From: Chloroflexota bacterium
Lineage (GTDB): Bacteria > Chloroflexota > Dehalococcoidia > Lucifugimonadales > Lucifugimonadaceae
DNA: 52,501 nucleotides
Assembly: GCA_013204545.1 (NCBI GenBank)
Contig: JABMNN010000083.1
Coordinates: 1 to 52,501, forward strand
Reading direction: 5' to 3'
Position 1 is the stretch's first letter; every line of letters starts with the position of its first letter. The notes beneath the pieces were generated by a model that saw only the letters and a list, made by a program, of their open reading frames with translations, was not told the DNA's origin and searched no databases. Of the stretch, positions 2-39,754 are shown piece after piece. The position numbers were made by a program, and so were the translations under genes.

Positions 2-922
<921 letters not shown>

Positions 923-953: not shown

Positions 954-1649
954 ATGAAAGTCCTAGTTGTCGATGACGACCCGGATATTGTTGAAGCAGT
1001 AAGTATCTGCTTTGCACTCAGGTGGCCGGATGCAGAATTAGTTGATGCACCCGATGGTGCTACCGCGCTCTCGGCATTCGCTGCTGAAGACCCAGATGTG
1101 ATTATTCTCGACCTTGGTTTGCCCGATATAAATGGGCTCGAAGTTTGCAGATCCATTCGGGAAACCTCTCAAGTTCCGATACTTATCCTGACCGCCCGTG
1201 GCGGTGAGCTGAATAAAGTTCGAGGGCTTGAGATGGGTGCTGATGATTACATCACGAAGCCGTTTAGTCATCTCGAGTTGCTGGCTCGAATCAAAGCGGT
1301 GGTGCGCCGGGCATCGGCACCTCCACCGGGTAGTGATGGTGAGGCATTCGTTCAGGGTAATTTTAGGTTCGATTTTGCTGCACACCGGGTTTTCTCAGGT
1401 GAGACAGCAATCCAGTTAACAAAAACCGAGTATGGGTTACTTTTCCATCTGACTAAAAACTATCCCAATGTGGTTTTGCACAAAACGTTGCTGGCAAAGG
1501 TTTGGGGTCGTGAGTACATCGACGAAACCGATTATTTGAAAGTTTATGTTCAGCGTATTCGTCGCAAGTTCGCGGAAGTCCAACCTGAATTGGATCCGAT
1601 AGCGACGGAGCGTGGTATTGGTTACCGCCTAGCAGTTTCGAACGACTAG
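954..1649 (+). CDS. OmpR/PhoB-family response regulator, KdpE-like
   Basis: A 231-residue DNA-binding response regulator. The receiver domain (about 1-120) has the acidic pocket VVDDD, phospho-acceptor D53 in ILDLGLPD, T80 in LILTARGG and K102 in ITKPF, so all catalytic residues are present. A winged-helix Trans_reg_C domain follows (about 130-228). Its recognition-helix region (DYLKVYVQRIRRKF) resembles KdpE, whose family reads YLRVYxxxLRxKLE. The gene begins 31 nt after the degenerate kinase gene and probably shares its transcript. Since that kinase lacks its His, this regulator may take phosphate from another kinase or acetyl phosphate (inference). An AGAGG about 12 nt upstream of the ATG is a possible ribosome site. 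Confidence 0.93.
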   Translation: MKVLVVDDDPDIVEAVSICFALRWPDAELVDAPDGATALSAFAAEDPDVIILDLGLPDINGLEVCRSIRETSQVPILILTARGGELNKVRGLEMGADDYITKPFSHLELLARIKAVVRRASAPPPGSDGEAFVQGNFRFDFAAHRVFSGETAIQLTKTEYGLLFHLTKNYPNVVLHKTLLAKVWGREYIDETDYLKVYVQRIRRKFAEVQPELDPIATERGIGYRLAVSND

Positions 1650-1787
1650 CGTCTTCAACTTTGGCGTGTCAACTTTCCGATACTCGTACTGAAGTATCAA
1701 GGTGATGATTTGCTACTTACGGCAGACTCGATGTTTACCTGTCTGTGACTTGTCGACACCAAGCTATGACTTACAGGTACTCATGAG

Positions 1788-1837: not shown

Positions 1838-3295
1838 ATGACCACAAATCCCCCAAGTGAAAAACCTCGTGAAGATCGCCCGTCTGGCGAAACTCACGCT
1901 TGTTACAACTGTTTTGCAGATTTCATCTGGGCGCCGACCATCCATGACGGTGAGGAATTTTGCTGCTCTGGATGCGTAGAGGGTGGTCCATGTATTTGTA
2001 CTTACGATGGACCGCCAAAATCCGTTGAGTACGGTATTTCTCCCACTGCGGTTGTTAGCGATGGCGAGTTAGAGCTTGAAGCCGACATCAAGATTGATCC
2101 GCGGCGAAAGATACTCTTGGAGGCAATTGAGGAACTCCCTGCCCAGCTCAGGAAAATAGCACGGCTGAGAGTTGTGAGCGAAGCCCCGATTGGAGAGATC
2201 GCACGGGATTCGGGCATGACACTTGAAGAAACGGAAAATACCCTCAAGAATTCTCAGGCGATTATTTGGCGAATGCTTGGGGAGGGATTCTCGATTGAGC
2301 ACATTCCTGACCACACCCTTCCAGAACGAGCCGTTATTTCTAAATCTGCATCGCCGCGCCAACCGGAGCCGCTTTCAGAATCGGTTGCTGAGGATGCCAA
2401 TACATTCGACCTTTCTGCGGCGATACGTGCTCCGCTTGAGGCACTTACCGCACCGTTACTCGGAATTCGAAGCGGTGCAGCCGAAACGGCGATTGCACAG
2501 AACACTATTCGAGAAGCGTTACGCGACGCATCGGCGATATTCAGGCTGGCATCTGAAAGGCTGGGAGAGGATCCGAATGAGCATCCGCTTCACAGGCTCC
2601 TTGCCGATGAATCAGCTGATGAAATCAGGATTATCGCTGATGGCCTTACCGAGCCAGCTATGTATCTGGTAGCACTTGATGGGCTTAGTTCTGTTCGATG
2701 GGCACGAGTCGAATCAAAAGAAGAGCATCGAACAATATTTGCCGTTGAAGCTGCGTCATCAGGTGCTTTGGTCCGTGACGTCATGGGGCTGGCGAGCCCG
2801 TTCAGACCAATACGACTCGTCGTTAGAGATACAGAGATCGAAATTACTCTTCCGGCAGAGGCATCGAATGGCGTGCCTGTCGCCGCGGTGTCGCCACAGT
2901 TCAGAACTCAACCAGTTTTTGAACTCGGAGCCGATGCTTTCTTCGGTGCTCGACACTTCGTAACAATGGGTGGAATTCAAGGTCCTCCACATCACCATTC
3001 GTTCCGAGTCGAAGCCCTTATGGAAACCTCTGCCCAAGACAGCGATGGAGTTGTATTGGGATTTGGCGATGCTAAAAAACTGATTGAAAGTATCGTGCTT
3101 GACTACAACGAATCGCTACTTAATACCGTTGAACCGTTCACTAGAATTCAACCTACTTCGGAGAATATCGCCAAGGTGATATTTGATCGGTTGAAAGTGC
3201 AATTGACTACAAACGATATTCGACTGAAGCAAGTAAGAGTATGGGAGAGTCCTACGAACTCGGCTTCGTATTCCGATGCAGTCCTGGCAATCTAG
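1838..3295 (+). CDS. Fusion of Cys-rich finger, sigma-region-4-like HTH and 6-pyruvoyl-tetrahydropterin-synthase-like domain
   Basis: A 485-residue multidomain protein. Residues 22-54 hold CxxC (C22, C25) and a second cluster (C42, C43, C46, C52, C54), a likely zinc-binding module. Residues 88-148 resemble sigma-70 region 4: LPAQLRKIARLRVVSEAPI, then an HTH containing EIARDSGMTLEE. Residues 190-345 are unassigned. Residues 360-480 match the PTPS/QueD fold: H373 in GARHF, H385/H387 in PPHHHSF (zinc ligands in the family), GVVLGFGDAKKLIE, LLN, PTSEN (439-443) and E470. No Cys lies where PTPS/QueD enzymes carry their catalytic Cys, so normal catalysis is doubtful. A PTPS-related protein is, as I recall, a known partner of exosortase G loci (TIGR03112). 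The 3' end overlaps the next gene by 20 nt. Confidence 0.75.
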   Translation: MTTNPPSEKPREDRPSGETHACYNCFADFIWAPTIHDGEEFCCSGCVEGGPCICTYDGPPKSVEYGISPTAVVSDGELELEADIKIDPRRKILLEAIEELPAQLRKIARLRVVSEAPIGEIARDSGMTLEETENTLKNSQAIIWRMLGEGFSIEHIPDHTLPERAVISKSASPRQPEPLSESVAEDANTFDLSAAIRAPLEALTAPLLGIRSGAAETAIAQNTIREALRDASAIFRLASERLGEDPNEHPLHRLLADESADEIRIIADGLTEPAMYLVALDGLSSVRWARVESKEEHRTIFAVEAASSGALVRDVMGLASPFRPIRLVVRDTEIEITLPAEASNGVPVAAVSPQFRTQPVFELGADAFFGARHFVTMGGIQGPPHHHSFRVEALMETSAQDSDGVVLGFGDAKKLIESIVLDYNESLLNTVEPFTRIQPTSENIAKVIFDRLKVQLTTNDIRLKQVRVWESPTNSASYSDAVLAI

Positions 3296-5839
3296 ATACA
3301 CATATACGGTCGCGATTTTAATTATCGTGGTTGTGACACTCGCACTGTATGCAGAGGTCGTTTTTCCTCGCGATCCAAACGTCATTTACCCTTGGTCGTC
3401 AGACACTTGGGGGCATCTGGTTAAGGCCGTATACCTGCGCGAGCAGATTTCTGAGGGTATTTGGTACCCAGACTTGTTCCCTGAGTGGTACAGCGGGCAG
3501 CAAATGCTTCGTTACTTTCCGCCGATAACGTACTACTCGTTGGTGGGGTTGAGTGAATTCACCGGCAACATTTACATGGCAGGTAATTATCTGCTGTTTA
3601 TTACGGCGGTTATCGGCGGTGTATCGGTACTGCTTTTTGCACCACGTATCGGGCTTGGGTGGGCGACCGTTGGGGGGATTTTCTTTGTCATATTCCCGGA
3701 TAACGTACGAGTCGCATTCGCCGAAGGAAATCTGCCAAGAATCATTTCAACCGCCCTGCTTCCTGCTGCCTTTTTTTCCTAGTTAATCTCTTGGAAAATA
3801 ACGGTCGGAAGCGCGATTTCGCTGGTTTGGTCGCAATGGTTGGATTGATCGTGTTATCGCACGCGATGATGGCAGGAATTTTCCTACTGGGATTCGGTAT
3901 GTACGCGGTGTCGTACTGGCTGATTGGAAGGGGTCCGTTGCGATCAGCTTCGATTGGTGCCGCGGCTTTGACGACCGGATTGTTTGTCAGTGCGTGGTGG
4001 ATGTTTCCATCGCTTACGGGCGGTATTACTGAACTTGACAATGCCGCTGCCAGTGAAGCGATTGCTCAATTTCCGATATCGGTGATGCTTAACCCCGGAT
4101 TGCGGGTGACCAACTACGAAATATTTTATGTAGGGCTTTCTGTTGTTATTGCCACACTAATATCTTGGCCCGTGTGGAGCCGTCTCGATCCTTGGGTCAA
4201 ATCGATGGTTCCTGTGACGATTATTATGACGTTGATCGGATCGACTTTGATCGTCGAGTTATGGCGCGCTCTTCCTGCCCATCAGCTTTTCTGGCCACTT
4301 CGTTTTATGAGCTTTGCCAGCCTTTTGCTAATTCTCAACAGCCTTATTGTTGCTAGCAAGATGTTCCAGGTTTCTATATCTCCAAATTTGCGATGGATGA
4401 GATTCACCGCCATTGCTATACCTTTGCTTATGCTTGCGGATTTCCAGCCATCGACTGCTTTGATCAGAACTCGTGAAATTCCTGATGATGTAGCGTCGGT
4501 ATCGGCTAAATTGAAAGAACTTGACGGGTGGAGAGTTGCGACTGCTGACCTTTCAAGATTAGGTTCGGCACCGGCGATGCTGTTCACCACAGAAGGCGAA
4601 CGCGAACAGATATTCGGCTGGGCGTTTCAGGGCTCGATTACTGCTCCGTTGCTCGCCAGATTGAATCAGAGCATGGATCAAGGGCACCTCGGATACACGA
4701 TCAGCCGGTTGGAACGATTGGGCGCTGACGACGTCGTTTATCTGCCTCAGCCGGACATAGATACGAAATTTCGACCTGAGCTCGAAAAAGACGGATTCGA
4801 TATAGTCCATACATCAGGCAGGCTCACGTTATTTCACAAAGATGGTGCACCTCGCGCCGTAGTCATCCCTTTGAAAGTATTTGGGATAGGTACTGCTGCG
4901 AACAACGTTTCTTTTCTGTTTCCGGAAGTGACGATAGGAACGTCAGAAAACATTGAGGATTACGATCCAGAGTTTCTCGATCAATTCGATGTGATAGTTC
5001 TATCGAGATTTACGTTTGATAATCGTGGTCGAGCCGAAAAGATTGTTAGGGACTTAGCTGAACGAGGGAAACGAGTCGTTATTGATTTGACTTCGGCACC
5101 ACTCGATACGCTTTCTCGTGAACCAAAATTCCTTGATGTATATGGCGAACCCGTACTCCAGATCAGTCAGGCTCGAACTGTGATCGACGGTGTAGTTAGT
5201 CCGTTATTGCCGTTTACTGATGAGTTCGGTACCTGGAGATCGGTGACACCTCAAGGAGCGGACGAAGTCCTGATTCCGTTCGAGTACATCGCTGGTGAAG
5301 CAGTGGCACTTTCGCGGAATATTTACGGTGATGGTGATGTGATATTCGTTGGATTGAATTTAATGTTCCACGCTGCCATCACGGACGATCCTCTGGCTAT
5401 CAGGATTCTCGAGTCCGTTCTTGGGATCGACGCGTGGCAGCCTTCGGGTGATCTGACAATACCGCTTGATAACTATGTTGCGAGCGAATCAGGTTGGCGG
5501 TTTGATATCACGATTCCGGAGGAGCAGTGGGTTCTGCTACCGATGGGCCTTCACTCTGGTACCAGCGTTGAGGCGAATGGAGAGACGGTTGAAGTAATTG
5601 GTGTTGAATCTCTCATACTTGCGAAGCTGCCTGCTGGCACAAGTTCAATTCACATTAAATCCGACCAAACCGCCATTTATACGATTGGTCGAGTGACAAC
5701 CGTGATCGGTGTCCTCGCGGCGTTGTACTACCTCACAAGTGGAAGGCGAGCAGAGTTAATCGGATGGATTCGAGAGAGACGGAAACCTAAGAAAGACCTC
5801 TCACTCAACAAAACTTTTACTGGTGGAGCGGACTCATGA
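3276..5839 (+). CDS. PTPS_related polytopic membrane protein, split by a single-base frameshift
   Basis: Two adjacent frames make one protein of about 850 residues. The first part (3276-3782) has an N-terminal TM, DTWGHLVKAVYL, and LFPEWYSGQQ followed by RYFPPITYYSL, typical of the membrane domain Pfam calls PTPS_related (PF10131). It ends with TAG at 3780-3782, just after a T7 run. Reading continues one frame back through FLVNLLENNG into 3791-5839, which adds several TM helices, a Rossmann-like segment (DQFDVIVLSRFTF ... GKRVVIDLTSAP), beta-rich extracytoplasmic regions and a final TM near the C-terminus with a basic tail. One extra T would restore the frame. The family resembles GT-C glycosyltransferase-like membrane proteins, but its activity is unknown. 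The gene overlaps its upstream neighbour by 20 nt and its downstream small ORF by 4 nt. Confidence 0.8.
3771..3777 (+). other. T7 homopolymer at the frameshift point, followed by TCC TAG
   Basis: The run of seven T is read GCC TTT TTT TCC TAG in the upstream frame. T_TTT_TTT has the form of a -1 slippery heptamer (X_XXY_YYZ), and homopolymers of this length also allow transcriptional slippage. Slipping back one base gives an uninterrupted, membrane-protein-like sequence. A missing T in the assembly is an equally simple explanation. Confidence 0.85.
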
Positions 5840-5976
5840 TGTCAGCTCGAATCGTAGTAAATGGGGGATTGGTTAGCGTCAGTGTGTCGGCAGATGTTCA
5901 CCATAATGAGACACTGCTCATACTCTGGGGTGACTCACAGGATGGCAGAATAGACTTATCTGGAGTTAATTTGTGA
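5836..5976 (+). CDS. Small ORF of 46 residues, translationally coupled on both sides
   Basis: ATGATGTCAGCTCG... runs 46 codons to TGA at 5974-5976. Its ATG overlaps the upstream stop as ATGA, and its stop overlaps the next start as TGATG, the same coupling used elsewhere in this operon. The product begins MMSARIVVNGGLVSVSVSAD and ends GRIDLSGVNL. It is mostly alternating hydrophobic/polar residues suggesting beta strands, with no signal peptide or TM. No family is recognised. An alternative is a non-coding spacer that is open by chance, but exact overlap at both ends argues for a real gene. Confidence 0.5.
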   Translation: MMSARIVVNGGLVSVSVSADVHHNETLLILWGDSQDGRIDLSGVNL

Positions 5977-7625
5977 TGCCGCGTATGTTGCCAACAAGAG
6001 CAAGAGCAGGTGTGCCAATTATCTTGGCGGTACTAATCGCTGGGATTTTTGCCGCGCTGATCGTATTGACCGTGAGAGCTGTCACTTCCCATGCTACTGA
6101 TGATTTCGAATCTGGTGATTTGGCGGGCGGTGGCGGTTGGGACGATGGTTCTTGGGCGACTTCCGGAAGTGTTGAAGCACGAACCAAAGATGGCCCTATT
6201 CAAGGTGCGTGGCACGTTCGTATCCGCAATGACGGATCAATGTCACGCTCTCTTGACGTTACTGGTGAAATAAATCCGGTTTCTCTTTCATTTTGGTTGA
6301 AAGCAGATGGATTTGAGGCAGGCGACACCGCATTCGTCAGGGTTACACCGAATGGCGGATCACCAGTTGTATTACAAACATGGTCTGACGGCGATGACAC
6401 CAATTCATACGCGCAATATACATACGATCTTGATGTGGCGGGCGTAACCCCAACGACTTTCCTCACTGTTGAATTTGTAATGAACGGCAATAAGAACGAC
6501 GATAAGATTTTCGTGGACGACGTTCAGATATTTGCGACTCCTTCGCCAACGGCAACTCCAACCGCGACTTTGCCCCCAACGGAAACACCGACTCCGACTA
6601 TTACTCCGACAGAGACGCCAGTTCCTACCGCAACATTAGTTCCAACGGCAACTCCGACTCCGCTTCCAACCGAGACTCCAACCCCTGAGCCGACTGCGAC
6701 CCCAGTTCCAGTTGAGACGCCGACACCTAGCCCTACACCTACAGTAGGGCCTGGCACGCCCACTCCAACTGCGATACCCCCAACCCCAACGCCGACCCCG
6801 ACGGTTGCACCGACTGAAACTCCAACACCGTTGCCAACTTCCACGCCAACGCCAGTCCCTACGGCGACTGTGGTTCCAACGTCCACGCCAGCACCAGTTC
6901 CAACTGTTACTCCGACGCCGACATCGGTGCCGACCGTGATTCCGACTCCGACGAACACTCCGGTCGCTACCCCTCCAGCAGGAGTGATCACTATTGATGG
7001 GTCTTTCAGCGACTGGGGCGGACAAGCATTCTTAACTGATCCATACGATGATCAGGTTGGAGATTCCAAAGGCGATCTTCATGAGTTGTACTGGGCGAAC
7101 AACCTGAACGAAGAAGTCAATTACCACATGGTCAAACGCCACACACAAGATGGTGATCCGTTTGATGGAACTAACGAACAAGACGAAGACGGAAAGTTTT
7201 TCCTATTCGTCGACACTAACAACAACGGGATCTTCACCGATTCAGGCGATCGTACGGTTGAGATTAAGTATGAGCCAGACAATGGCGGTCGAGTGAAAGT
7301 TAGAGTGCGCCAAGGTGCCTCCGATGCCGTGATAAGTGATAGCGGGTGGAATGATTGGGGTGAGACTGAGGGCGAAGGAGGATTACGTCTTGAATTTGCT
7401 CTCGATTGGAACGATCTCGGAATCGCTCTTGGTGACGTGATTCGGATGTATTTGGTGAGTTACGAAGGAAGAAATCACGATATTGAGGATCGTTTGCCAG
7501 ACAGTGGAGACGTTCAGTGGTCGCCGGCTTCGATCTTCGGTCCCGTACTGCTGGCGATCGTCACAGGATTCGGCATATTTGTCATCTGGTGGTTCCGCGG
7601 AAGGCGTACATGGACATCTGGCTGA
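5976..7625 (+). CDS. Cell-surface protein with N-terminal TM, jelly-roll-like domain, Thr/Pro stalk and C-terminal TM-Arg sorting-type tail
   Basis: About 549 residues. The ATG at 5976 or the GTG at 5973 follows GGAG at 5962-5965. An N-terminal signal or TM (GVPIILAVLIAGIFAALIVL) is followed by a domain beginning DDFESGDLAGGGGWDDGSW and ending IFVDDVQIF, typical of beta-sandwich carbohydrate- or protein-binding modules. A stalk of about 145 residues of Thr, Pro, Ala and Val follows. A second domain starts ITIDGSFSDWGG and contains acidic repeats such as FVDTNNNGIFTDSGD. The C-terminus is SPASIFGP, a 20-residue hydrophobic helix, then WWFRGRR. That motif-TM-Arg layout matches the tripartite tail of exosortase/archaeosortase substrates, and the exosortase homologue overlaps the 3' end by 16 nt. 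It is the natural candidate substrate (inference). Confidence 0.8.
   Translation: MPRMLPTRARAGVPIILAVLIAGIFAALIVLTVRAVTSHATDDFESGDLAGGGGWDDGSWATSGSVEARTKDGPIQGAWHVRIRNDGSMSRSLDVTGEINPVSLSFWLKADGFEAGDTAFVRVTPNGGSPVVLQTWSDGDDTNSYAQYTYDLDVAGVTPTTFLTVEFVMNGNKNDDKIFVDDVQIFATPSPTATPTATLPPTETPTPTITPTETPVPTATLVPTATPTPLPTETPTPEPTATPVPVETPTPSPTPTVGPGTPTPTAIPPTPTPTPTVAPTETPTPLPTSTPTPVPTATVVPTSTPAPVPTVTPTPTSVPTVIPTPTNTPVATPPAGVITIDGSFSDWGGQAFLTDPYDDQVGDSKGDLHELYWANNLNEEVNYHMVKRHTQDGDPFDGTNEQDEDGKFFLFVDTNNNGIFTDSGDRTVEIKYEPDNGGRVKVRVRQGASDAVISDSGWNDWGETEGEGGLRLEFALDWNDLGIALGDVIRMYLVSYEGRNHDIEDRLPDSGDVQWSPASIFGPVLLAIVTGFGIFVIWWFRGRRTWTSG
6535..6975 (+). repeat. Low-complexity Thr/Pro-rich coding tract
   Basis: Degenerate repeats of ACNCCN-type codons encode TPTPTAT-like runs forming a long extended stalk in the surface protein. 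The codons vary, so this is protein-level repetition rather than a recent DNA tandem expansion. The antisense Val/Gly-rich reading frames here are shadows. Confidence 0.9.
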
Positions 7626-8224
7626 TCGGTGTTCTGATTGTTGTCTGGGCCTTGGTGGTTGCCTTCTTCAGGTTGAACCGCATTTGGTTGCCGTACTACA
7701 TAATCGGCTCGGTAGGGCTTGCGTTCATCATCATCTTCGTTGGCCGAGCGACTGGCCTTGAGGCGGCTCTTCAAATTGGAGTAGCTGCAGGGGTTCACGC
7801 ATTGTCTATTGCGTTGGGTCTGCCAACCGAGATATTTCAATCCGCCCCTGGTTCGATTCTAATACTCGTAATTTCACAAGACATTGGGTGGACGATGCTT
7901 CAAGTGACGATCGAGTCATCTGGTCTGCTTGAAACCGGTGTGATTGCCGGAATGTTGCTCTTCTACCCTGGCTGGAACGGGCGAAAGCGAATCTGGTTCA
8001 CGTTTGCCGCTGTTGTACTAACCTATTTGTCGAATGTGATTCGGTTGATGGTGATCGTGATCACGTTGCACTATATGGGTAAATCGTCGTTATTGATATC
8101 GCACACGATTATCGGCAGAGCGGTTTTCTTTGCTTTGGTAGTAGCGATTTACTGGTTCTTGATGACCCGTCCAACATTGCGAACTGTCAAACACAAGATT
8201 GACAATGAACTGATGAAATCATGA
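7610..8224 (+). CDS. Exosortase/archaeosortase-family membrane protein without cysteine (XrtG-like)
   Basis: A 204-residue polytopic protein of about six or seven TM helices. The ATG at 7610 is preceded by GGAAGG and gives a TM-first N-terminus, so I prefer it to upstream in-frame starts. The exosortase core is recognisable. Residues 102-106 read ESSGL where the family has xCSGL, YLSNVIRLMVIV supplies N142 and R145, and LLISHTIIGR supplies H165 and R170. Exosortases are proposed Cys/Arg/His transpeptidases that cut C-terminal sorting tails. Here S103 (TCA) replaces the Cys and the whole protein contains no Cys. Context (PTPS-like protein, PTPS_related membrane protein, family 2 glycosyltransferase) fits the XrtG neighbourhood. 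It may be a Ser-dependent variant or have lost peptidase activity. Its stop overlaps the glycosyltransferase start as ATGA. Confidence 0.8.
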   Translation: MDIWLIGVLIVVWALVVAFFRLNRIWLPYYIIGSVGLAFIIIFVGRATGLEAALQIGVAAGVHALSIALGLPTEIFQSAPGSILILVISQDIGWTMLQVTIESSGLLETGVIAGMLLFYPGWNGRKRIWFTFAAVVLTYLSNVIRLMVIVITLHYMGKSSLLISHTIIGRAVFFALVVAIYWFLMTRPTLRTVKHKIDNELMKS

Positions 8225-9624
8225 CAGATGAACTAGTTGGATTCGTCCTCTTTTGGGGTGTGTGGTTGTTTGTGCCGATGCTGATTGATGGTACGACAGC
8301 AGTCGCTTACTTCATCGGAGGGTATAGATCACGGCCGAGCACACGTGTAGAGGCACGATTGAAGCCTCTTGATCGCTACCCACGCGTGTCGATTTTGATT
8401 CCAGCCTACAACGCGTCCAAAGTCCTCCCGTTCTGTCTCGAGTCTTTGCGAAAGCAGACTTATCCTCATCGTGAGATGGAGGTGTTGATCATCGACAACC
8501 AGTCGACCGATGACACACGGGCAGTGATCGCCGGGCAGCAGTCGATCCGCTTTGCTGGAAGCCTTAACTGGATATCGTTACCATATAAAGGCAAACCGGG
8601 TGCGCTAAACGCTGGTATTCATCGTGTGGGCGGCGAAATTATCATCAATATTGATGCTGACACTGTGCTCCATCCCGATTCAATTCTCGAAATGGTCAGA
8701 GCATTTGATCAGAACCCAAAGGTTGCTGGTGCAACGGGATCTATTGAAGTGCTTCCTGCCGATATCGACCCGCGGACTGGCAAGCGCATCGAAATTCACC
8801 CGTTCAGATATTTGGTGGCAGAAGCTGAATTTCTTGAGTACTACGCTGGATTCCGAATCGGAAGGCAGTACCAGAGCCAAACTCAGAGCCTATTCACGCT
8901 TGCTGGTGCATTTTCAGCGTTCAGGCGAGATGTGTTGCTGAAGACATTTTTGTATGACGAGCGCACGGTGTCAGAGGACACCGACCTGACGTTCTTTATT
9001 GCTCGGCAGTTCCCCGAGAAAGTCGTAGTCGCTGTTGCTCCAGCAATTGCTTACGTTCACCCAACTGAGTCGATGAAGGCGATGTACGCTCAACGCCTGC
9101 GCTGGCAGCGCGGACAACTTGAAGTCGCTTCTCAGTATCCAGATTTTGAGAGGCACCCGTTCAGGTTAAGAGGCTTAGCAATTTCAAAATCGTTACTGAT
9201 CGACCATACGCTGGCGTTCCCGAGAGTGGTTTGGACATTCTTGCTGCCGATGATGTACTTCGTTGGATTTCCGTTGACGCTTGTCGTTAGCGCCACGTTA
9301 TCGATGTACCTGATCTACATGGTTGTTGAAGGACTCTATTTAGTGGTCGCGTATGTCGTCGCTGAAGGCTCCGCAAAAGCGAGAATTCGTCGACATTGGT
9401 GGATGTTTCTCTTCATGCCTGCATACCGCTGGACGATATTCTGGTTCAGGTTCGGCGGGTTCTTGGCTGTGATGATGGAAAACAAAGAGTGGAGAGCGAG
9501 TGATCCAATCACAGAAACTAAGCAAGGAATTCAGAGAGTCTCAACGCTCACTCTGACATTCCTGACGCAGTCGTTCTTGCCTAGGCTTGCTGCCATTGTT
9601 GGTGGTGTTCTACGCACTAAGTAA
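8221..9624 (+). CDS. Family 2 glycosyltransferase, membrane-bound processive type, exosortase-associated
   Basis: 467 residues. One N-terminal TM (about 5-33) is followed by a GT-A catalytic domain: VSILIPAYNAS (57-67), IDADT with D145/D147 for nucleotide-sugar and metal, SEDTD with E252/D253 as the likely base region, and QRLRW (291-295). QxxRW is the hallmark of processive enzymes of the cellulose, hyaluronan and PgaC type. About four TM helices follow (320-375, 395-440), forming a possible translocation path. Acting at the cytoplasmic membrane, it would polymerise or transfer sugar from a nucleotide-sugar. It overlaps the exosortase gene by 4 nt. A glycosyltransferase of this type next to XrtG is, as I recall, the family TIGR03111. 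Sugar and acceptor are unknown. Confidence 0.9.
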   Translation: MTDELVGFVLFWGVWLFVPMLIDGTTAVAYFIGGYRSRPSTRVEARLKPLDRYPRVSILIPAYNASKVLPFCLESLRKQTYPHREMEVLIIDNQSTDDTRAVIAGQQSIRFAGSLNWISLPYKGKPGALNAGIHRVGGEIIINIDADTVLHPDSILEMVRAFDQNPKVAGATGSIEVLPADIDPRTGKRIEIHPFRYLVAEAEFLEYYAGFRIGRQYQSQTQSLFTLAGAFSAFRRDVLLKTFLYDERTVSEDTDLTFFIARQFPEKVVVAVAPAIAYVHPTESMKAMYAQRLRWQRGQLEVASQYPDFERHPFRLRGLAISKSLLIDHTLAFPRVVWTFLLPMMYFVGFPLTLVVSATLSMYLIYMVVEGLYLVVAYVVAEGSAKARIRRHWWMFLFMPAYRWTIFWFRFGGFLAVMMENKEWRASDPITETKQGIQRVSTLTLTFLTQSFLPRLAAIVGGVLRTK

Positions 9625-9631
9625 ATGAGTT

Positions 9632-11878
9632 ATGCAAATAGCAACTCATCGGCTCATCAAGCTAATTTTTATGGCTAGCACATCTCAGCACACAACAGAA
9701 ACCCAAGTAACTGGGAGCCAACTTACGAATGTTTTTCGGAGATTAGCGCGTCTCGATTGGCGGCCGTACACGCTGATTGCAGCACTTCAGATCGTTACTG
9801 CTTTCGTATTCCTTGTAAATTCGGGGTCAGGGGTATCGTCATGGTTCGATAAATTCCCGCTGGACGATGGCTGGATTCACATGGTCTATGCCAGAAGTTT
9901 CGCCGAGAACGCGCAGCTCTGGTACAACCCGGGAGTTCCAGAGTCGGGAATGACTAGCCCATTATGGGCGATTGTAGTGGGTTCTACATGGGCAATTATT
10001 GGCATGCTCGGGCTTGGGATTGTCGCTACGGCAAAATTGCTCGGGGTTATCTTCGCGATATTGGCGGGATGGCTCACGATGCGAATCGTGTGGAAGCTTT
10101 CACGGCAACGCCGATTGGGAGTATTCGCAGGTGTACTAGTAGCAGTTGAACCCAGCTATGCATTTGCCGCCGTGTCCGGGATGGAAGTCCAGCTATTCAG
10201 CATAGTTTCACTTGCTGCAATGTGGATGTTCTTACAAGGTCGATTGAGAACGACAGGTGTCTTGTTTGCTCTGATGATTCTCGCTCGACCCGAGGGCTAC
10301 ATAATTTTCGGAATTGCAGTTGTGACGGCGGTCGCACGTCGAATGTGGCAAAGAGATCGACTTGAGCTAGTCAATAATGAAGATATTCGTGAATTAGTAG
10401 CTCTGATTGGCCCTACGTTGTTACTGGGTGGAGCATGGGCCGTTTACAACTACACAATAAACGGAACACCGTGGCCAAATACGTATCTTGCGAAGCACCA
10501 AGAGATGGGCGTACTGCCACTCGGTAACATATTCAATGTTTTGCAGGGATACTTCCATCATCTTTCCTTCTTCTCTGGAGTCGCTTTTCCTGTGACCATG
10601 CTTGCCGTACTGATTGGTGCGGTATGGATTCTTAGAACTTATTCGTTTGCCGGTGCTCCGTTAGTTTTTCTGCCAGTAGGTATGACCTACGCTGTTGGTT
10701 CGGCATTTCCGTTGACCGAAAATACATGGAACTTCTTTACCCGTCGTTATCTTGACGCGATTATCCCGATTCTAGTGATATTGATGATTCTAGGATTCTT
10801 GAGGATATGGCAGAAGTTTCATCAATGGAGAGAGACCCGCGCCCCGATCGATCAACGGGAAGCACATATATTCAATTTCGGGTTGAATATTGTTTTTGTT
10901 GCCGCAGTGATACTCCCATTCCTTGCTTTGCCTAGCGATTTGCAGCGTCTCTCCGACGACTATTCATGGAACTCAAAAAATGTCCACGATATTGACGTCG
11001 GCATGGCTCTATGGATCGATGAAAATCTTCCCGAGGATGCACGGATCGGTGTCGGTGATGCTGGCGCAATGCGCTTTTTCGGCAATCGCTATACATACGA
11101 TCTGGTTGGCCTGAACACGGCGAGCGCTATAGGGCGTCCGCCGCTAGAGTATGCCGAAGAGAATAAACTCGACTATCTCTTCGTATTTAGATCGATTTAT
11201 TTTGATAGCTGGGAATTCGCCGACCCTGTTTACACGATTGAGGTCGACCGGAACACCATTTTAGGTGGTTCTCAGATGCGTGCCTACGCGGCGGACTACG
11301 AGAAAGTTAATGAGTTCGTCGACTCAACTGCTGCAGTCGATACTGAGCTTCTGAAGCGACAGATATCGGTAATTGACATCCTCGATACGGGAAATGGGGT
11401 TGCTATTCCTGCGTACTCGGAAGCAGCCCACGCATACAAACTTAAGGGTGCGGGCGGGGTAGTCGAACGCACGTTTCGGACTGTTCTATCAGGAGTTATC
11501 AAAGATGAAGCTACGACCTTTGCTACCTCAGAGCAATTTACTGCCAACTCAGTTCCTGGAGAGTTGTTGATAGTTGCCAAAAGATACGACGCGGCACTGC
11601 GAGGAACATTGAAGGTATTCGCTGATGACGTTGAAGTTGGCGAGTGGGAACTTTCAGATAAAGAGTTCTTCTTTGGGGTTGATTCGTTCGACATTCCTGG
11701 CTCGTATATCACCTCGAACAAGACTGTTCTTCGCTTCGATGTTGTTCCGTTTCCGGGCCACACAACTGGCAATAGCTTTATGTGGTGGATTTTTGTTGAG
11801 AACTCAGTTGCCGAAGAATCTGGCATTGACGTGATAGAAGCAAGCGATTCCAGCAAAAATACGAACGAAGTTCCTTAG
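9632..11878 (+). CDS. GT-C-like polytopic membrane glycosyltransferase with extracytoplasmic beta domain
   Basis: Up to 748 residues. The ATG at 9632 gives a 13-residue extension before MASTSQ, so ATG at 9671 is an alternative, and neither has a clear ribosome site. After TM1, LDDGWIHMVYARSFA and WYNPGVPESGMTSPLW match the first extracytoplasmic loop of GT-C/arabinofuranosyltransferase-like enzymes, where acidic DD residues are catalytic and the donor is polyprenyl-phosphate sugar. About ten more TM helices extend to residue 440. The remaining 300 residues are extracytoplasmic and beta-rich, ending PGHTTGNSFMWWIFVENS. It follows the family 2 glycosyltransferase by 7 nt, so the two probably act on one glycan. 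Exact specificity cannot be read from sequence. Confidence 0.75.
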   Translation: MQIATHRLIKLIFMASTSQHTTETQVTGSQLTNVFRRLARLDWRPYTLIAALQIVTAFVFLVNSGSGVSSWFDKFPLDDGWIHMVYARSFAENAQLWYNPGVPESGMTSPLWAIVVGSTWAIIGMLGLGIVATAKLLGVIFAILAGWLTMRIVWKLSRQRRLGVFAGVLVAVEPSYAFAAVSGMEVQLFSIVSLAAMWMFLQGRLRTTGVLFALMILARPEGYIIFGIAVVTAVARRMWQRDRLELVNNEDIRELVALIGPTLLLGGAWAVYNYTINGTPWPNTYLAKHQEMGVLPLGNIFNVLQGYFHHLSFFSGVAFPVTMLAVLIGAVWILRTYSFAGAPLVFLPVGMTYAVGSAFPLTENTWNFFTRRYLDAIIPILVILMILGFLRIWQKFHQWRETRAPIDQREAHIFNFGLNIVFVAAVILPFLALPSDLQRLSDDYSWNSKNVHDIDVGMALWIDENLPEDARIGVGDAGAMRFFGNRYTYDLVGLNTASAIGRPPLEYAEENKLDYLFVFRSIYFDSWEFADPVYTIEVDRNTILGGSQMRAYAADYEKVNEFVDSTAAVDTELLKRQISVIDILDTGNGVAIPAYSEAAHAYKLKGAGGVVERTFRTVLSGVIKDEATTFATSEQFTANSVPGELLIVAKRYDAALRGTLKVFADDVEVGEWELSDKEFFFGVDSFDIPGSYITSNKTVLRFDVVPFPGHTTGNSFMWWIFVENSVAEESGIDVIEASDSSKNTNEVP

Positions 11879-27174: not shown

Positions 27175-29871
27175 TTATGGAACGAGGAAAGCCGGCTCTC
27201 TGAGGGCTGGATTGCCGTAATTGACGGTCGAAAGATCGGGTTCGAGTCGGCTAAGCGATATGGCGATATATTCATCATCAGCCGATGCAACAGCGAATAT
27301 TCCAGATACCCAAGCGTCTATATCAGATGGATTCAGTCCAACAAGATAGTCAAACAAAGCTTTGGCACTTGATCCTGAAAGCTTTTTATTCGTTCTAAGC
27401 TCATCGTCGAGATTTAATCCAGAGGAATCGGCAAGAACTTCATGCCATAGCAATTTGTGCCCCAATACGTGTTCGGGCGAACCGGTTAACGTTTTGCTGC
27501 TGTTGAGGAGGTACTCAACTTCGCTTCGCACTACGTTCACGTCTGGGAATCGCATTAGATCGATACCAAGATAGTTTTCGATAGATCTGAGCGCAGCAGC
27601 TTCAAAAATCTGTGCCTGTGCTTCGAATAGTCCCCTGAGGTTTTGCGTGCGACCGAATTCCGTCTGATTGGGATTTTTTAGATCCTGAAGAGCATGTCCA
27701 AGTTCGTGGAAATAGACGCCAAGGGCGTTGATAGGTGACTCGCCAAGATCGACGTATACGTGAACTTTCCCGTTGAGTCGGTATTTGAAGCCGATCTCTC
27801 CACGGAAATTGGTGCAAGCGTCGTAGGTGTTGATGTAGACAGTGTCTGGCAGTAAGAAGTAGTCAGTCATGCACGCATTGAACGAAGCTGCTATGAATTC
27901 ATCGTGCGATAAGAGATGCATCACAATGCGTTCGTCATTCAGATCTCGACCAGTTAGCAGGTAGTATCCAGCTCGTCCGGCCTCTTCGATAACGGCTACC
28001 CAGTCAGGAGTAACGATATCTGACCCCACGGTCGCTCTGACCTGATCGGTAAAGGCTCTGTCGGTGAGTGGAGCAAGCATTGCCGCAAGTTGAGCGTCTG
28101 TAAGGGGGCTTGTGAGCGCATCGCTGGTCGGCGAACCTGGGAGGAATTCGAACCATCTTCCAAGCCTGTTATCTGCCTCATTGCTCTCGAAGATGTCATC
28201 CAGCGAGTCGACAACCATTGTTACGAGGTGTTGGCCGGGAGCGAGGGTGCCCGCAGGAATATTCGCCGATTCTGTCCAGTAGTTTCCCGCGTCATCACCA
28301 GAGCTAAGGAACACAGTTTGAAGCCATTCGTTATCGAGGTATATCTGCGCTTCGAATGTCCCTGAATTGGCGGAGTTGACTCTGCTTGAGTTTCTCATAG
28401 CGAACGAAATCAAAGAGTCTGCAGATGCCCAAATATAGCCGTCAGTTCCTGCAGCCAGACCATCACTTTCATTGCTAGCCGATATTGCGGCATCCCAGCC
28501 GTACGGAGTTATTCCGGTGAAGTTTGGAAGAACCTGAACTTCCCTGATTGGTGCGCCTTTGGATTCCACTAGAATAGGCGAGGCGATTGGATCACCAGTG
28601 CCCCACGTGAGAGCAACTTCGAGAGAGTTGTCGTCTTCATTAGATTCAACGATTGCTCCACTAGCATCAGCAATCAGCTTCACGGTGTGTTCACCTGGGG
28701 TAACCCGGATAGCGTTATTCAGCCCTTGCCAATCGAGGTTTATGTACTCACCTCCGACCAGGCCTGAGTAGCTTGCACGGAATGCGAGTATGCCATCGAA
28801 AAGCACATTTACGTTGAATTCTTGTGAAATCGATATTGGTGAATCGTTCAGAATAGTGAATGAGAAATAAGTATCGCCTTTGGTTGTGAGACCGCCAGAA
28901 TTTACAGCACCTGAGTAGGGAGCTGCCGTAATTCCGGTCGAATCGCCTACTATCGAAAGATTTGGGAGCCTTGCATCAGGCTGAGGCGTGGGGATGACCG
29001 GCCCAGCCCAAATGAAATTTGTTGAGTATGTGTTGTCGCCATCTGAAATCTCAGAGATCAAGTTGGTGGAATCGATGACGAGTTTGAGTTCGTGTTCACC
29101 CGGCTGAAGTTCGAATGTATCCAGCAATCCGGTTTCGCCCTCAATGAAAGCAAATCTGCTTGGTTGCAGATCGATGCCGTTCCAGCGGCTGGCAATTGCG
29201 TTGTCGATATACACATCTATGAAGTAGTCGCCGGACACAACTGAACTTCCCGCATTGGTAAAGAAAAAATCGACAACAAAATCAGATTTTTCTACGAATG
29301 GTCCACCATTCGGATTGCGCACTCTGACTGGTTGACCGCTCCCAAAATATGGTTGTAGATCAGCACTACTAGTCGGAGTGGGTGAAGGCTGTTCAAACGG
29401 TGTCGATGGGGAGGGAAATGAAGTAGCCGTAGGAGTGGGTTTACGTTCGAGAGTTTCTGGGACAGTGAAAGCAGATATCACGCCTTCCGGAAGTACCCCG
29501 TATTCAATGGTTGGAATGGGTATCGATGTTGGGGTTGGGGTGTTTGTTGGAAGTGGTGTTGCAGTTTGAGTCGGTGGCGCTAGCGTCGCAGTTGAAATTG
29601 GAGTTGGAGGGACTGGAGTTGCCGTTGCCGTTGGTAGAGGCAGTGGAGTAGCAGTAGGTACAGAGGTAGGCGATGGCGGCGGAGGAACGCGCGTTGCTGT
29701 TTCCGTGAGCGAAGTAGGCGTAGGTGTTGTGACCGCTATCGAAACTACAGTTTCGATAGCGGGGGCAGTCAATTCAGGACTGGCTGTCGAACATGCCAAT
29801 ACAGCCGTCGTGATAGCGATAACGAGGGCGAGCCATATTCGATGATGAACTTTGAACGATTTTCTGGTCAC
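27175..29871 (-). CDS. Large lipoprotein with Thr/Pro stalk, CARDB repeats and a zincin metalloprotease-like domain
   Basis: 898 residues. The signal peptide ends VLAC with lipidation C27. Residues 30-170 form a Thr/Pro stalk. At least three CARDB-like blocks (about 185-285, 310-420, 440-570) share the cadence PGEHxxKLxxDxxxxxxExxxxDN, as in PGEHELKLVIDSTNLISEIS. The C-terminal part holds H722-E-L-G-H726 in YFHELGHALQDL and a following EAQAQIFEAA helix whose Glu could be the third zinc ligand, as in gluzincins. This suggests a surface-tethered peptidase or adhesin with peptidase fold. The Thr/Pro stalk resembles that of the surface protein at 5976-7625. Confidence 0.82.
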   Translation of the reverse strand: MTRKSFKVHHRIWLALVIAITTAVLACSTASPELTAPAIETVVSIAVTTPTPTSLTETATRVPPPPSPTSVPTATPLPLPTATATPVPPTPISTATLAPPTQTATPLPTNTPTPTSIPIPTIEYGVLPEGVISAFTVPETLERKPTPTATSFPSPSTPFEQPSPTPTSSADLQPYFGSGQPVRVRNPNGGPFVEKSDFVVDFFFTNAGSSVVSGDYFIDVYIDNAIASRWNGIDLQPSRFAFIEGETGLLDTFELQPGEHELKLVIDSTNLISEISDGDNTYSTNFIWAGPVIPTPQPDARLPNLSIVGDSTGITAAPYSGAVNSGGLTTKGDTYFSFTILNDSPISISQEFNVNVLFDGILAFRASYSGLVGGEYINLDWQGLNNAIRVTPGEHTVKLIADASGAIVESNEDDNSLEVALTWGTGDPIASPILVESKGAPIREVQVLPNFTGITPYGWDAAISASNESDGLAAGTDGYIWASADSLISFAMRNSSRVNSANSGTFEAQIYLDNEWLQTVFLSSGDDAGNYWTESANIPAGTLAPGQHLVTMVVDSLDDIFESNEADNRLGRWFEFLPGSPTSDALTSPLTDAQLAAMLAPLTDRAFTDQVRATVGSDIVTPDWVAVIEEAGRAGYYLLTGRDLNDERIVMHLLSHDEFIAASFNACMTDYFLLPDTVYINTYDACTNFRGEIGFKYRLNGKVHVYVDLGESPINALGVYFHELGHALQDLKNPNQTEFGRTQNLRGLFEAQAQIFEAAALRSIENYLGIDLMRFPDVNVVRSEVEYLLNSSKTLTGSPEHVLGHKLLWHEVLADSSGLNLDDELRTNKKLSGSSAKALFDYLVGLNPSDIDAWVSGIFAVASADDEYIAISLSRLEPDLSTVNYGNPALREPAFLVP

Positions 29872-36250: not shown

Positions 36251-39200
36251 TCAACTTTCACCCATTCTCATGATTCGGTGTATCGACATTCGGTATACGG
36301 AAACAAGTATGAGGCTAATTACCACGAGGAATACTATCCCCAAAAGACCGAACGTGATTCCAAATCCGAACCAATCTATTTGAACAGCCATTGGTGGAAC
36401 TACAACTGCGTTCTCACCTGAGCTTGCGAGATACGGCATTATCGTCGTGCCCATTCGCGTACCCATAAATATACCGAGAGCGACGGCGACTCCGATCACC
36501 ATAATCTGTTCCAACACGACCAGGAACAGTAGCTGTTTCATTGAAAGTCCGATGGTGCGTAGCAGTGCTAGTTCAGTACGACGGCCATCGAACGATATCT
36601 TTGCGTGAACCAAGAAGCCCACTGCGCTCACGATAAGAACGGTGAAAAATGCGATACCTAATAAGGCTCGCCAGCCGGCTGAAACAAGAGGGTCGAAAGC
36701 GACGCTAGCCAGCTCTACAGATCTGTCGGTTACTTTTGTGCTGGGTCTAACTCGGAGCCTTGAAAGTTCCTGAGTGATTTCTGGAACAGCTCGATCACCG
36801 GCAATAACCGATTCGAGAATTCCATCCGCTGCGCCGAGCAGTTCTGAGCCTTGTGTGGTAGATATCCAGAACTCTGTTGGCTGAATATTCCCTATTGTGC
36901 GGGTGATGTTCAGGCGCTCATGTATCGCTTCTAAGTCTGCCACCAAGAATGGCTCTTCATCGAGCGATAGCGTGGGGAAGTATTCGACCACGTCACGAAC
37001 TGAGACTTTGATCGGAATGCCGTCGAGAGAGATTTCAAAAGGTTTTCCGTCTTTGCCGCCGTGTCGTTCGATAAACGATGTGCTGGCAATGACTGGGACA
37101 ACCTCTAGCTCGGAGCCGTGAGCGAGCCCTCGGTATTCCCGAGGGCCAGACGAAGTCCATCGTAGGCGGGCTATGCCGTTCAAAGGAGTTCCGTCAGGCA
37201 TTAACGCCTGACTGAGATTGTCACCTAGCGCCTCGCGCGTTGGAGCCATAGTTCGCCAGTTGTTTATCGAATCGAACGTTTCGATAATTATCAATTCAGT
37301 GCCTGTATTGTTGAGCACGGCGATATCGTCGATGTCGATTGCTGCTGGACTTAGACCATTTTCGTAATCGATTACACCAATCGAGTGAAGTCGAATTGGC
37401 TTCACTGGGAGTAGGCCTGGAATTCCGCGGAACGGTGCTGCCTGAATACTTGATCCGATCCGGCACCACTCCGGTGGCTCGCCGTCGACAGGTATTGGGC
37501 AGGTGAATCTGTTCTGATCAGAGGCTAGTGGCACCAGTGATCCTAGTGGGACAGAGAAGAACTGACCGTTCGCATCTGAAAGTCTGGCAACCATGTAAGT
37601 TGAAGGTTGCCTGACGAGAGGCAGAATTTTCGCTGTGAGCCAACGTCCTTCGGAAGGAAGTTCGATTCCAGCGGCACCACCTACATCGAGAACTGAAAAC
37701 TTTGCTTCGAATGGTGTGAGCCCGAAATCGTCTCTAAACCATCCGACATCTTCAATTGTGTCGAGGTTCACTCCAATGATCTGGAATCCTTCGACGCTGA
37801 TACCGGCATTGATGTTCGCTGTCTCGCGGTAGATTGGTGAAACAACTTCGACATTTTCAAGTTCACTCAATTTATCGACGATTGAGAATGAAACACCGCC
37901 TTCACGAACACTGACCGAGGTGAGTTTTACATCGGCTCCTGTTCGGTAGTACGCCTGATCGATGGCACTCTGTTCAAGTGTTGCTCCGAAACTGGCAGCG
38001 AATACGCCGAGTGCAGCTGTGAGAATCAGCAGCAGTGAAAGTCGAGAGTGGTGAGCAGGGTTTCGTGCCAATTGCCAGATTCCAAGAATCAAAGCTGGAG
38101 GCGATATCGATGACATCGGACGCCTTGAAAGAAACCTGCCTGTTAGGTCCATTCCAACAGGGAAAATTCGAAGCAATACGAGACCAGCTGCAACTAGGAA
38201 GATTGCCGGAACACCAAGTATTAGTTGATTGACAGTCGTCTCGCCGAAAATGCTGACCGCCACGAATGATCCTTGCTTGGTGAGCTGCCAGAAAAGGAAC
38301 ATTACAAGCCCGAGGAAGCCGAGATCGAGGTAGTAACGCTGAACTACTGCCAAGCGCGCTGGGCGTGTGTGCGTAACTCGACTTGCCAGCAGGCCGAGCC
38401 GGGTGGCTCTGAGCGCGGGAATGAACAGGGCCAATAGTCCTAATAGCCCACCGAAGAACGCCATACGGAACGCTCCGAACGTCATTTGCACGGGAAGAGG
38501 GTCTCCCCCATTCAGTTCGCTATAGATTGGCAACACGCCTATGAATCCAACACCAATGAACGCCAGAAATGGACCAGATATTGCGGCTATGGTTGCCAAT
38601 AATCCGGCTTCGATAATGAAAACAGCCAGAATCTGGCCTGAGGTTGCGCCACGAGTTCGAAGAAGCCCTACTTCACTTTTCTGAGCGTCAACCAGTAGTG
38701 AGGCAAGTGTCACAACGTAGTACAACACCACAAGAACGATCAGGATCAGAACGATAAACATCGGTAACCGGTTGAAAAACAGATCGGTTTCAAATGCACT
38801 TAGGGTTTCCGGTAGATCAGATTTGAGCAGGAAACCATCGACGATCGCTTTTAGTTCACGTTCGGTTGCATTTATCGTGTTTCGTATTGATTCGGTTTCA
38901 GAAGCGGAGATTCGTTCAGGATCGACATCCAACCACCACGCGTAGTCGGTTCCCATGTTAGGAAAGTACGATCCTAGACCTTCAAGAATCGTCAGCTCAG
39001 GGACAACGAATCTAGCGAATTGCAACGTATCAGTGCGCGACCCAAACGCCTCGTTCTGGATGCGCCAGTGAGCCGAATCAGGGTCGACGCGTTCGTAGAG
39101 ACCGGTGACGAGAATATTTAAATTTGAATGTATATCGTCCCAGTGTGGCCTCACTGGGTATATGTCTCCGACGTTGATGTCCATCATGGTGGCCGCATCA

Positions 39201-39754
39201 ACATCGAGAATTCCTTCGATCTGAAGCGAGTCGTTAGGCGATACTGTGGTCACTGGTTGAGCCAGCGTGCCTTCGACAATGTTTAGCCGATTGTTCGCAT
39301 CTGGAATAGTCATCATCGAGACTCTTCGGCAGTCACATTCAATCAGCTCGTCATCACCTGAGTTATTGGAAATGTTCGAGCGGCATGGACAGTCACTGGG
39401 AGCGACCATCGCCGGAGGTAGGTCGACAAAGAAAGTCCATGTTTTCAGTGCGAATTCGTGTTCATCTAGGAACGGTTCAAACCTACGAACAATGGTTGCG
39501 TTCATCGCATCGACGATTGTTGAGTGGGTTTCCGCGTTAGTAGGAACCTGTCCAGCTTCAACCAATACGTTGAGGTCGGATGCGTTTTGGGATGACAGGG
39601 CGCGCTGTAGGGCGACATCACGGAGAGTATCGAAGAAGATGACCGAACTTGCCATGATCGTGGACGCGAGAATGACGCCGACAATTACCGCAGAGAGAAG
39701 TCGCCAGTGAGCAAGCGTTCGCTTGACTATGAGTTGGAACGGATTACCAATCAT
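36251..39754 (-). CDS. FtsX-like ABC permease, 1167 residues
   Basis: TM1 (about 17-37) is followed by a large extracytoplasmic domain, then a block of TM helices from FIVLILIVLVVLYYVVTLASLL (about 330) with the FtsX cytoplasmic motif SEVGLLRTRGATSGQILAVF. A second extracytoplasmic domain and a closing FtsX block follow (FFTVLIVSAVGFLVHAKISF, then RRTELALLRTIGLSMKQLL). The duplicated FtsX layout matches LolC/E-like or lipid/peptide-exporting permeases. C-Cys residues in CPCRSN and CDCRR in the first domain may bind metal or form disulfides. It overlaps the neighbouring permease gene by 4 nt (ATGA). Confidence 0.9.
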   Translation of the reverse strand: MIGNPFQLIVKRTLAHWRLLSAVIVGVILASTIMASSVIFFDTLRDVALQRALSSQNASDLNVLVEAGQVPTNAETHSTIVDAMNATIVRRFEPFLDEHEFALKTWTFFVDLPPAMVAPSDCPCRSNISNNSGDDELIECDCRRVSMMTIPDANNRLNIVEGTLAQPVTTVSPNDSLQIEGILDVDAATMMDINVGDIYPVRPHWDDIHSNLNILVTGLYERVDPDSAHWRIQNEAFGSRTDTLQFARFVVPELTILEGLGSYFPNMGTDYAWWLDVDPERISASETESIRNTINATERELKAIVDGFLLKSDLPETLSAFETDLFFNRLPMFIVLILIVLVVLYYVVTLASLLVDAQKSEVGLLRTRGATSGQILAVFIIEAGLLATIAAISGPFLAFIGVGFIGVLPIYSELNGGDPLPVQMTFGAFRMAFFGGLLGLLALFIPALRATRLGLLASRVTHTRPARLAVVQRYYLDLGFLGLVMFLFWQLTKQGSFVAVSIFGETTVNQLILGVPAIFLVAAGLVLLRIFPVGMDLTGRFLSRRPMSSISPPALILGIWQLARNPAHHSRLSLLLILTAALGVFAASFGATLEQSAIDQAYYRTGADVKLTSVSVREGGVSFSIVDKLSELENVEVVSPIYRETANINAGISVEGFQIIGVNLDTIEDVGWFRDDFGLTPFEAKFSVLDVGGAAGIELPSEGRWLTAKILPLVRQPSTYMVARLSDANGQFFSVPLGSLVPLASDQNRFTCPIPVDGEPPEWCRIGSSIQAAPFRGIPGLLPVKPIRLHSIGVIDYENGLSPAAIDIDDIAVLNNTGTELIIIETFDSINNWRTMAPTREALGDNLSQALMPDGTPLNGIARLRWTSSGPREYRGLAHGSELEVVPVIASTSFIERHGGKDGKPFEISLDGIPIKVSVRDVVEYFPTLSLDEEPFLVADLEAIHERLNITRTIGNIQPTEFWISTTQGSELLGAADGILESVIAGDRAVPEITQELSRLRVRPSTKVTDRSVELASVAFDPLVSAGWRALLGIAFFTVLIVSAVGFLVHAKISFDGRRTELALLRTIGLSMKQLLFLVVLEQIMVIGVAVALGIFMGTRMGTTIMPYLASSGENAVVVPPMAVQIDWFGFGITFGLLGIVFLVVISLILVSVYRMSIHRIMRMGES

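Follow-up and report, generated by a model that had tools for sequence, protein, structure and literature searches.

An exosortase-like enzyme with serine in place of the superfamily's catalytic cysteine is encoded at positions 7610-8224 of contig JABMNN010000083.1, and across related loci this residue covaries with one position in the sorting signal of the surface protein encoded just upstream. The 52,501 nucleotides analysed, hereafter the window, belong to the 2.95-Mb draft genome of a marine SAR202 bacterium (Chloroflexota). Positions 1838-11878 of the forward strand hold, in one direction, genes for a PTPS fusion, a PF10131 membrane protein, the surface protein, the XrtG-like exosortase, a family 2 glycosyltransferase (GT2) and a GT-C-like protein; the locus as a whole belongs to the XrtG system, of which it forms a Chloroflexota branch, and is not a new system. 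We lean slightly towards reading it as a dedicated transpeptidase module whose nucleophile became Ser and which joins a glycan-binding-like protein to an acceptor made by glycosyltransferases. A wider proposal is, in our judgement, evenly poised: that exosortases can run on Ser, that in Chloroflexota there were three or more switches of the nucleophile between Cys and Ser, in all of which the motif Pro gave way to a small polar residue, perhaps an aid in activating the Ser, and that a Bacillota lineage lost the nucleophile (Asn) and absorbed its own substrate to become a one-piece membrane receptor. The features of enzyme and substrate are as follows.

5973-7625, forward strand: sorted surface protein with signal or anchor helix (residues 16-34), N-terminal ectodomain, stalk, CBM9/DOMON-like domain and sorting tail
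6528-6992, forward strand: Thr/Pro stalk, 34% Thr and 32% Pro over 155 residues
6984-7532, forward strand: predicted CBM9/DOMON-like beta-sandwich domain, residues 338-520
7518-7541, forward strand: sorting motif W-S-P-A-S-I-F-G, with Ser520 (codon 7530-7532) at the covarying position x2
7542-7622, forward strand: transmembrane sorting helix followed by the basic C-terminus (RGRRTWTSG), from the tail sequence
7610-8224, forward strand: XrtG-like exosortase, 204 residues, five predicted transmembrane segments
7916-7918, forward strand: Ser103 (codon TCA), aligned with the catalytic Cys of exosortases (motif E-S-S-G-L-L-E)
8042-8044, forward strand: Arg145 of the conserved N-x-x-R, by alignment
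8102-8104, forward strand: conserved His165, by alignment

The enzyme scored above the cut-offs of TIGR04178 (49.4 bits against 23) and PF09721 (27.7 bits against 25.7), and it is polytopic, with five hydropathy segments and a mostly helical predicted model (pLDDT 83.5). Its match to TIGR03110 is at 93.6 bits (E 1.3e-26) below the cut-off of 102.75, which none of 250 genomes of the window's order reached, and Ser103 occupies the place where the exosortase/archaeosortase superfamily is defined by Cys; for these two reasons the enzyme is not filed as a TIGR03110 XrtG. We think that it works like XrtG. An exosortase homologue had been correctly recognised here in the initial annotation of the locus, which overlooked the replacement of its catalytic Cys. 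No other exosortase-family match was found in the window's own genome. Cys, Arg and His are described as absolutely conserved in exosortases in the available text of PMC1569441, and Cys173 as critical in the archaeosortase ArtA in that of PMC9263693.

Arg145 and His165 are invariant in alignment A4 (40 rows). In the catalytic column of 59 unique XrtG rows, Ser occurs 30 times, Cys 25 times and Asn four times, with Ala, Gly or Thr in none of the 59, and Arg and His are retained wherever the sequence extends that far. The Ser codons are varied (TCA, TCC, TCG and TCT, together 29, and AGT once), which argues against a recurrent sequencing slip. As a control, other exosortase types of the phylum were aligned: 11 loci were tried, six aligned over the catalytic column (L010, L012, L134, L136, L137, L149) and all six have Cys. 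L010, L134 and L137 represent a different Chloroflexota exosortase type with a W-N-C-V-G-W motif and a weak match to the XrtG models.

The tail of the surface protein is tripartite, consisting of motif, hydrophobic helix and basic end. A model of this tail had the gene beside XrtG as its top match in all nine genomes scanned (E 2.9e-16 or better), the runner-up among scored candidates reaching E 0.0085 anywhere and 0.1 in the window's own genome, where in two of the nine genomes 150/177 and 150/186 first-look candidates were scored. The ectodomain was modelled as a CBM9/DOMON-like fold. TIGR04145 (Firmicu-CTERM) gave 16.5 bits on the surface-protein domain, below its cut-off of 50; it matched 13 of 17 family members at E up to 1 (best 1.5e-4), and in hhalign the family and TIGR04145 aligned over just 16 columns (Prob 29.8). 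Elsewhere in the window, positions 27175-29871 encode an 898-residue CARDB-domain protein, perhaps a surface protein, which is absent among the tail-model matches listed.

In a tree of XrtG and GT2 (56 rows, catalytic column excluded) Ser appeared at three places: a clade of 15 that includes Anaerolineae, Ardenticatenia, Herpetosiphonaceae and Oscillochloris; row L055 by itself, with the AGT codon; and a clade of 13 rows belonging to the window's family. The Cys rows L030, L053 and L054 are placed, on starred branches, between L055 and the window-family clade, and the minimum number of Cys/Ser changes on the tree is three. A single Ser clade was rejected by the approximately unbiased (AU) test, chosen after the tree had been seen (p 3.8e-5; 0.001 without L055). 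Cys predominates in the Bacillota rows and among the other exosortases, which suggests that Cys is ancestral and Ser derived, a direction that the counts themselves do not give.

Position x2, three residues before the motif Gly, is Pro in each of the 21 Cys-type loci whose motif can be recognised. In the 28 Ser-type loci with a readable tail it is always Ser (15), Asn (10) or Asp (3). The catalytic residue and x2 each change three times on the tree, and the independent pairs agree in 3/3. Among the columns scanned (187 in XrtG, 424 in GT2 and 37 in the tail; one row was misregistered), the catalytic column and x2 (tail position -3) were the only ones to separate the 49 rows into Ser and Cys groups without error. 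XrtG positions 98 and 162, which lie near the catalytic residues in sequence, made three errors. Pro at x2 was predicted beforehand for newly found Cys loci and was present in six of six (L128, L138, L139, L141-L143).

The Asn-type loci, all of Bacillota, fuse the substrate ectodomain to XrtG in one chain in 9/9 cases (L117, L118, L120, L121, L140 and L144-L147), and the sorting helix and basic end are gone; L144 and L147 come from one genome, L146 is truncated by the contig end, and helix positions refer to L118 and L120. The five Cys-type loci from the same family search (L138, L139, L141-L143) have separate genes and a full tail. The Asn-type enzyme retains the Arg and, where sequenced, the His. 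The strongest ground for thinking that Cys, and likewise the retained Ser, acts on the tail is this joint loss of nucleophile and tail.

The other genes of the locus and the two upstream of it are these.

1838-3295, forward strand: PTPS fusion (PF01242 83.3 bits, TIGR03112 54.8, PF08281 18.6)
3276-5839, forward strand: PF10131 (PTPS_related) polytopic membrane protein, in pieces 3276-3782 and 3791-5839
8221-9624, forward strand: membrane GT2 of TIGR03111 type (TIGR03111 351.9 bits, PF00535 100.4 bits)
9632-11878, forward strand: GT-C-like polytopic protein with hydrophilic C-terminal part, by profile matches of family members
954-1652, forward strand: OmpR-type response regulator directly upstream of the locus
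2-922, forward strand: histidine kinase, truncated by the contig start, further upstream

Gene names, order and strand stand as initially annotated. The genes overlap by 20 nt between PTPS and PF10131, by 16 nt between surface protein and XrtG, and by a 4-nt ATGA between XrtG and GT2. The gene number, then given as six or seven, is six with one broken, because the PF10131 gene is a single open reading frame in relatives (L040-L042 and others) and frameshifted in the window near a run of seven Ts at 3771-3777; its pieces score 64.7 and 268.0 bits (cut-off 26.4) and cover profile positions 1-91 and 99-621. The profile search proposed for the locus proteins returned significant matches to TIGR03110, TIGR03111, TIGR03112, PF10131 and PF01242, the first three all below their NCBIfam curated cut-offs: GT2 falls short of the 363.95 bits of TIGR03111 (E 4.8e-105) and the PTPS fusion of the 69.35 bits of TIGR03112 (E 9.8e-15), the latter protein being well over the 22.4 bits of PF01242. 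The regulatory domains that this version of the system was said to add reduce to the N-terminus of the PTPS fusion, with a Cys-rich ribbon-like part (CxxC...CCxGC...CxC) in 10 of the 12 rows of alignment A5 and a weak resemblance to sigma region 4 (residues 81-139; 18.6 bits against a Pfam cut-off of 25.7) in four of the 12 rows scanned, the window included.

In the C-terminal PTPS-like domain (residues 368-479), aligned with 2dj6, His373, His385, His387 and Glu470 are invariant in the 12 rows of A5, and none of the 12 has Cys at the usual catalytic place before HxH. We take these His residues to be zinc ligands, and the catalytic Cys position and its motif are likewise assumed. With the Cys absent and the presumed zinc site kept, the protein is unlikely, judged by its residues, to be an ordinary pterin synthase. 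The second-best NCBIfam match of the GT2 is PgaC/IcaA, and it is thus related to polysaccharide synthases. The GT-C-like protein of the window has no significant profile match of its own; among nine aligned family members NF047440 matches six (best 1.1e-10) and PF15971 three (best 6.9e-5), and in this set the gene is restricted to loci with the window's gene order.

Homologues of the response regulator and histidine kinase occupy the same upstream place in L040-L042 and L051. The kinase opens with a Pro-Glu repeat, and its open frame is longer in the L040 relative. On the minus strand at 36251-43020 two neighbouring very large proteins (1167 and 1089 residues) carry FtsX-type permease domains.

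The initial proposal of a Chloroflexota neighbourhood of XrtG type that includes a sorted surface protein dedicated to it is borne out, related loci occur in Bacillota, and homologues of the genes are clustered rather than scattered. The order PTPS, PF10131, surface protein, XrtG, GT2 was kept in 29 of the 42 loci (among the 59 unique XrtG loci) with flanking DNA enough to judge, and the clustering is not due to chance. The 13 others are the four classical Bacillota loci L112-L115, which have other orders or parts; the four Tepidiforma-type loci L031, L092, L093 and L096; four in which a PTPS match is absent (L034, L091, L119 and L124); and L125. At L125:7028-8530 XrtG and a C-terminal GT2 part stand in one frame, either a real fusion or a frameshift.

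TIGR03110 was matched in 17 of 250 genomes of the window's order and in four of the 19 listed for its genus, to which Candidatus Lucifugimonas marina, a SAR202 isolate in culture, belongs; the XrtG of the JH1073 chromosome (CP046147.1) is identical to that of a same-genus relative (G405). Sampling of the phylum gave matches in 11 of 301 genomes, and seven of these, counting the window's own, scored at least 76 bits; in a sample of the phylum to which the Bacillota locus L095 belongs, 13 of 348 matched, eight over the cut-off. Of the 41 loci obtained by scanning named genomes, 38 carried Chloroflexota titles (including Anaerolineae, Ardenticatenia, Herpetosiphonaceae, Oscillochloris and Tepidiforma) and three were from Bacillota.

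Natural fusions join PTPS to PF10131 (L086, L095, L116, L118, L120-L123) and PF10131 to the surface domain (L030, L116, L122-L124). Triple fusions of PTPS, PF10131 and sorted domain, of about 1300 residues, keep the sorting tail (L116:7789-11697, L122:2016-5954, L123:7891-11757). These fusions indicate that the three products probably act as one complex. Some Bacillota substrates are themselves polytopic membrane proteins.

The reaction may be pictured as follows. The surface protein would be exported by Sec, so that the CBM9/DOMON-like domain and Thr/Pro stalk lie outside while the membrane holds the C-terminal helix. From the outer face, XrtG would recognise W-S-P-A-[S/N/D]-x-[L/F]-G directly before the helix, and Ser103, aided by Arg145 and His165, would cleave via an ester acyl-enzyme. 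The new C-terminus would be passed to an acceptor, most likely a lipid- or polymer-bound glycan, made by GT2 and, in SAR202, the GT-C-like protein, with the PTPS and PF10131 proteins as partners in the same membrane complex. On this view Ser would have replaced Cys as nucleophile on more than one occasion, and the substrate motif would have altered to match. We infer the cleavage, the nucleophilic role of Ser, the direction of change, the acceptor and the roles of the PTPS and PF10131 proteins; the unit may both glycosylate and anchor the surface protein. A glycan-binding-like domain, a cuttable tail and a GT2 related to polysaccharide synthases together suggest a protein fixed to, or near, a glycan as it is made. 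The available text of PMC10444878 describes a SAR202 isolate as monoderm and the genomes as encoding no peptidoglycan synthesis, so that a sortase-type wall anchor would be unavailable, an observation in keeping with a lipid or glycan as acceptor. In some loci the substrate is joined to PF10131 and hence already held in the membrane, and in the Asn lineage it is joined to XrtG; the constant purpose may therefore be to keep the substrate domain at the synthase, covalent joining being an elaboration.

Several points weigh against a serine transpeptidase. The covariation was discovered on the same rows that display it, the AU test was a post hoc choice involving several long branches, and the pairs test rests on three independent Cys/Ser changes, for which 3/3 cannot reach 0.05. 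With one error each, the Ser and Cys groups are also told apart by XrtG position 55 and by GT2 positions 404 and 439, so that shared ancestry alone yields near-perfect separation. The six new Cys loci are drawn from two families close to rows already in use, four of them have Pro replacing the motif Gly, and no new Ser locus was found, which confines the independent check to the Cys side of the covariation. The Cys-type loci L112-L115 carry a different tail motif, and the four Tepidiforma-type loci have neither a PF10131 match nor CTERM-profile matches. The fold match of the ectodomain suits haem-binding DOMON domains too. The system is patchy, as its 17 of 250 genomes show, and the break in PF10131 may be an assembly error or a real mutation, in which case the module may be broken in the window's strain. 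The triple fusions are membrane-held anyway, and plain membrane anchoring is thus not the sole purpose. Lastly, a Cys-to-Ser mutant of the Haloferax archaeosortase ArtA is reportedly inactive.

The reported inactivity of that mutant would also suit a Ser-type XrtG that has lost catalysis and serves as a membrane scaffold, holding the surface protein by its uncut helix beside the glycan synthase, with the Asn fusions as end state. The Asn-type enzyme keeps Arg and His though fused to its substrate and lacking a sorting helix, so that the fold serves a role other than cleavage, and the triple fusions retain the substrate domain in the complex. Yet a dead site should drift, and instead Ser is found at three places on the tree with no Ala, Gly or Thr in 59 rows, the tail is kept in 28/28 Ser loci where it is readable, and the motif changes along with the nucleophile; loss of catalysis is on this evidence unlikely. 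More doubtful still is a hydrolase that would cut off the tail and set the stalked protein free instead of attaching it. Water could, by general chemistry, resolve an ester intermediate, and the stalk and glycan-binding-like domain could hold a secreted polymer non-covalently, but the GT2 adjoining in nearly every locus that reaches that far suggests joining, as do the polytopic membrane substrates of some Bacillota. Ordinary divergence, in which the XrtG system is a known one, its Ser incidental and the covariation due to shared ancestry, would account for the small number of independent changes (three), the grouping of most Ser rows within two clades and the GT2 columns that separate the groups nearly as well, but is made very improbable by the perfect split of 49 rows by two columns in two proteins and by no other column scanned, by the AU rejection of one Ser clade and by the Cys in all six other-type exosortases that aligned, of 11 loci tried.

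If the wider proposal holds, the role of XrtG is to keep a glycan-binding protein in place at the synthase of a glycan, and working, swapped and retired natural versions are at hand to compare. The natural Cys, Ser and Asn variants track one neighbouring protein and tie enzyme to substrate residue by residue, which makes the reaction testable. A serine exosortase, if true, would overturn the view that these enzymes require cysteine. It also suggests a route of surface attachment for widespread ocean bacteria lacking peptidoglycan, of which a cultivated relative exists for testing. As far as the open-licence literature searched can show, the Ser, its covariation with the substrate and the Asn fusions are new, and in that literature no mechanism of XrtG was found.

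The closest known system is XrtG/Firmicu-CTERM (TIGR03110, TIGR03111, TIGR03112, TIGR03766, TIGR04145), as on Lactococcus plasmid pBV60 and in [Eubacterium] eligens. It shares with the window an exosortase-like enzyme, a GT2 of TIGR03111 type, a PTPS homologue and a single neighbouring protein bearing an IDG...DW stretch and a tail at its C-terminus, and E. eligens also has a PF10131-type protein. The window differs in its Ser for Cys, three sub-cut-off scores, gene order, tail motif, a GT-C-like protein without TIGR03766 match and the extra N-terminal ribbon on PTPS. The pBV60 system (L112:4413-10691) lies directly behind diguanylate cyclase and EAL genes, which suggests control by cyclic di-GMP and is consistent with a regulated polysaccharide. 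In Lactiplantibacillus plantarum an "Exosortase G (XrtG) system" is named, in the available text of PMC12854382 (2026), among transcripts over-expressed in strongly interferon-inducing, self-aggregating strains, and that text offers no mechanism.

ArtA/PGF-CTERM of Haloferax volcanii resembles the window in its polytopic enzyme, conserved Arg and tripartite C-terminal signal; a model of lipid attachment with a thioester intermediate is set out for it in the part of PMC7157517 that was accessible. ArtA differs in having Cys173 with Arg214 and Arg253, as given in the available text of PMC9263693. It also has several substrates, and no GT2/PTPS/PF10131 cluster is known to accompany it. EpsH/XrtA with PEP-CTERM is of the same superfamily and has exopolysaccharide genes nearby, whereas the window lacks the Cys and has a monoderm host and a single substrate. 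Rhombosortase and myxosortase are likewise described, in the sources as far as available, as membrane enzymes that process tripartite C-terminal signals, and belong to other protein families, rhombosortase to the rhomboid serine proteases (PMC3237569, available part). Unlike that of rhombosortase, the Ser of the window sits within the exosortase family.

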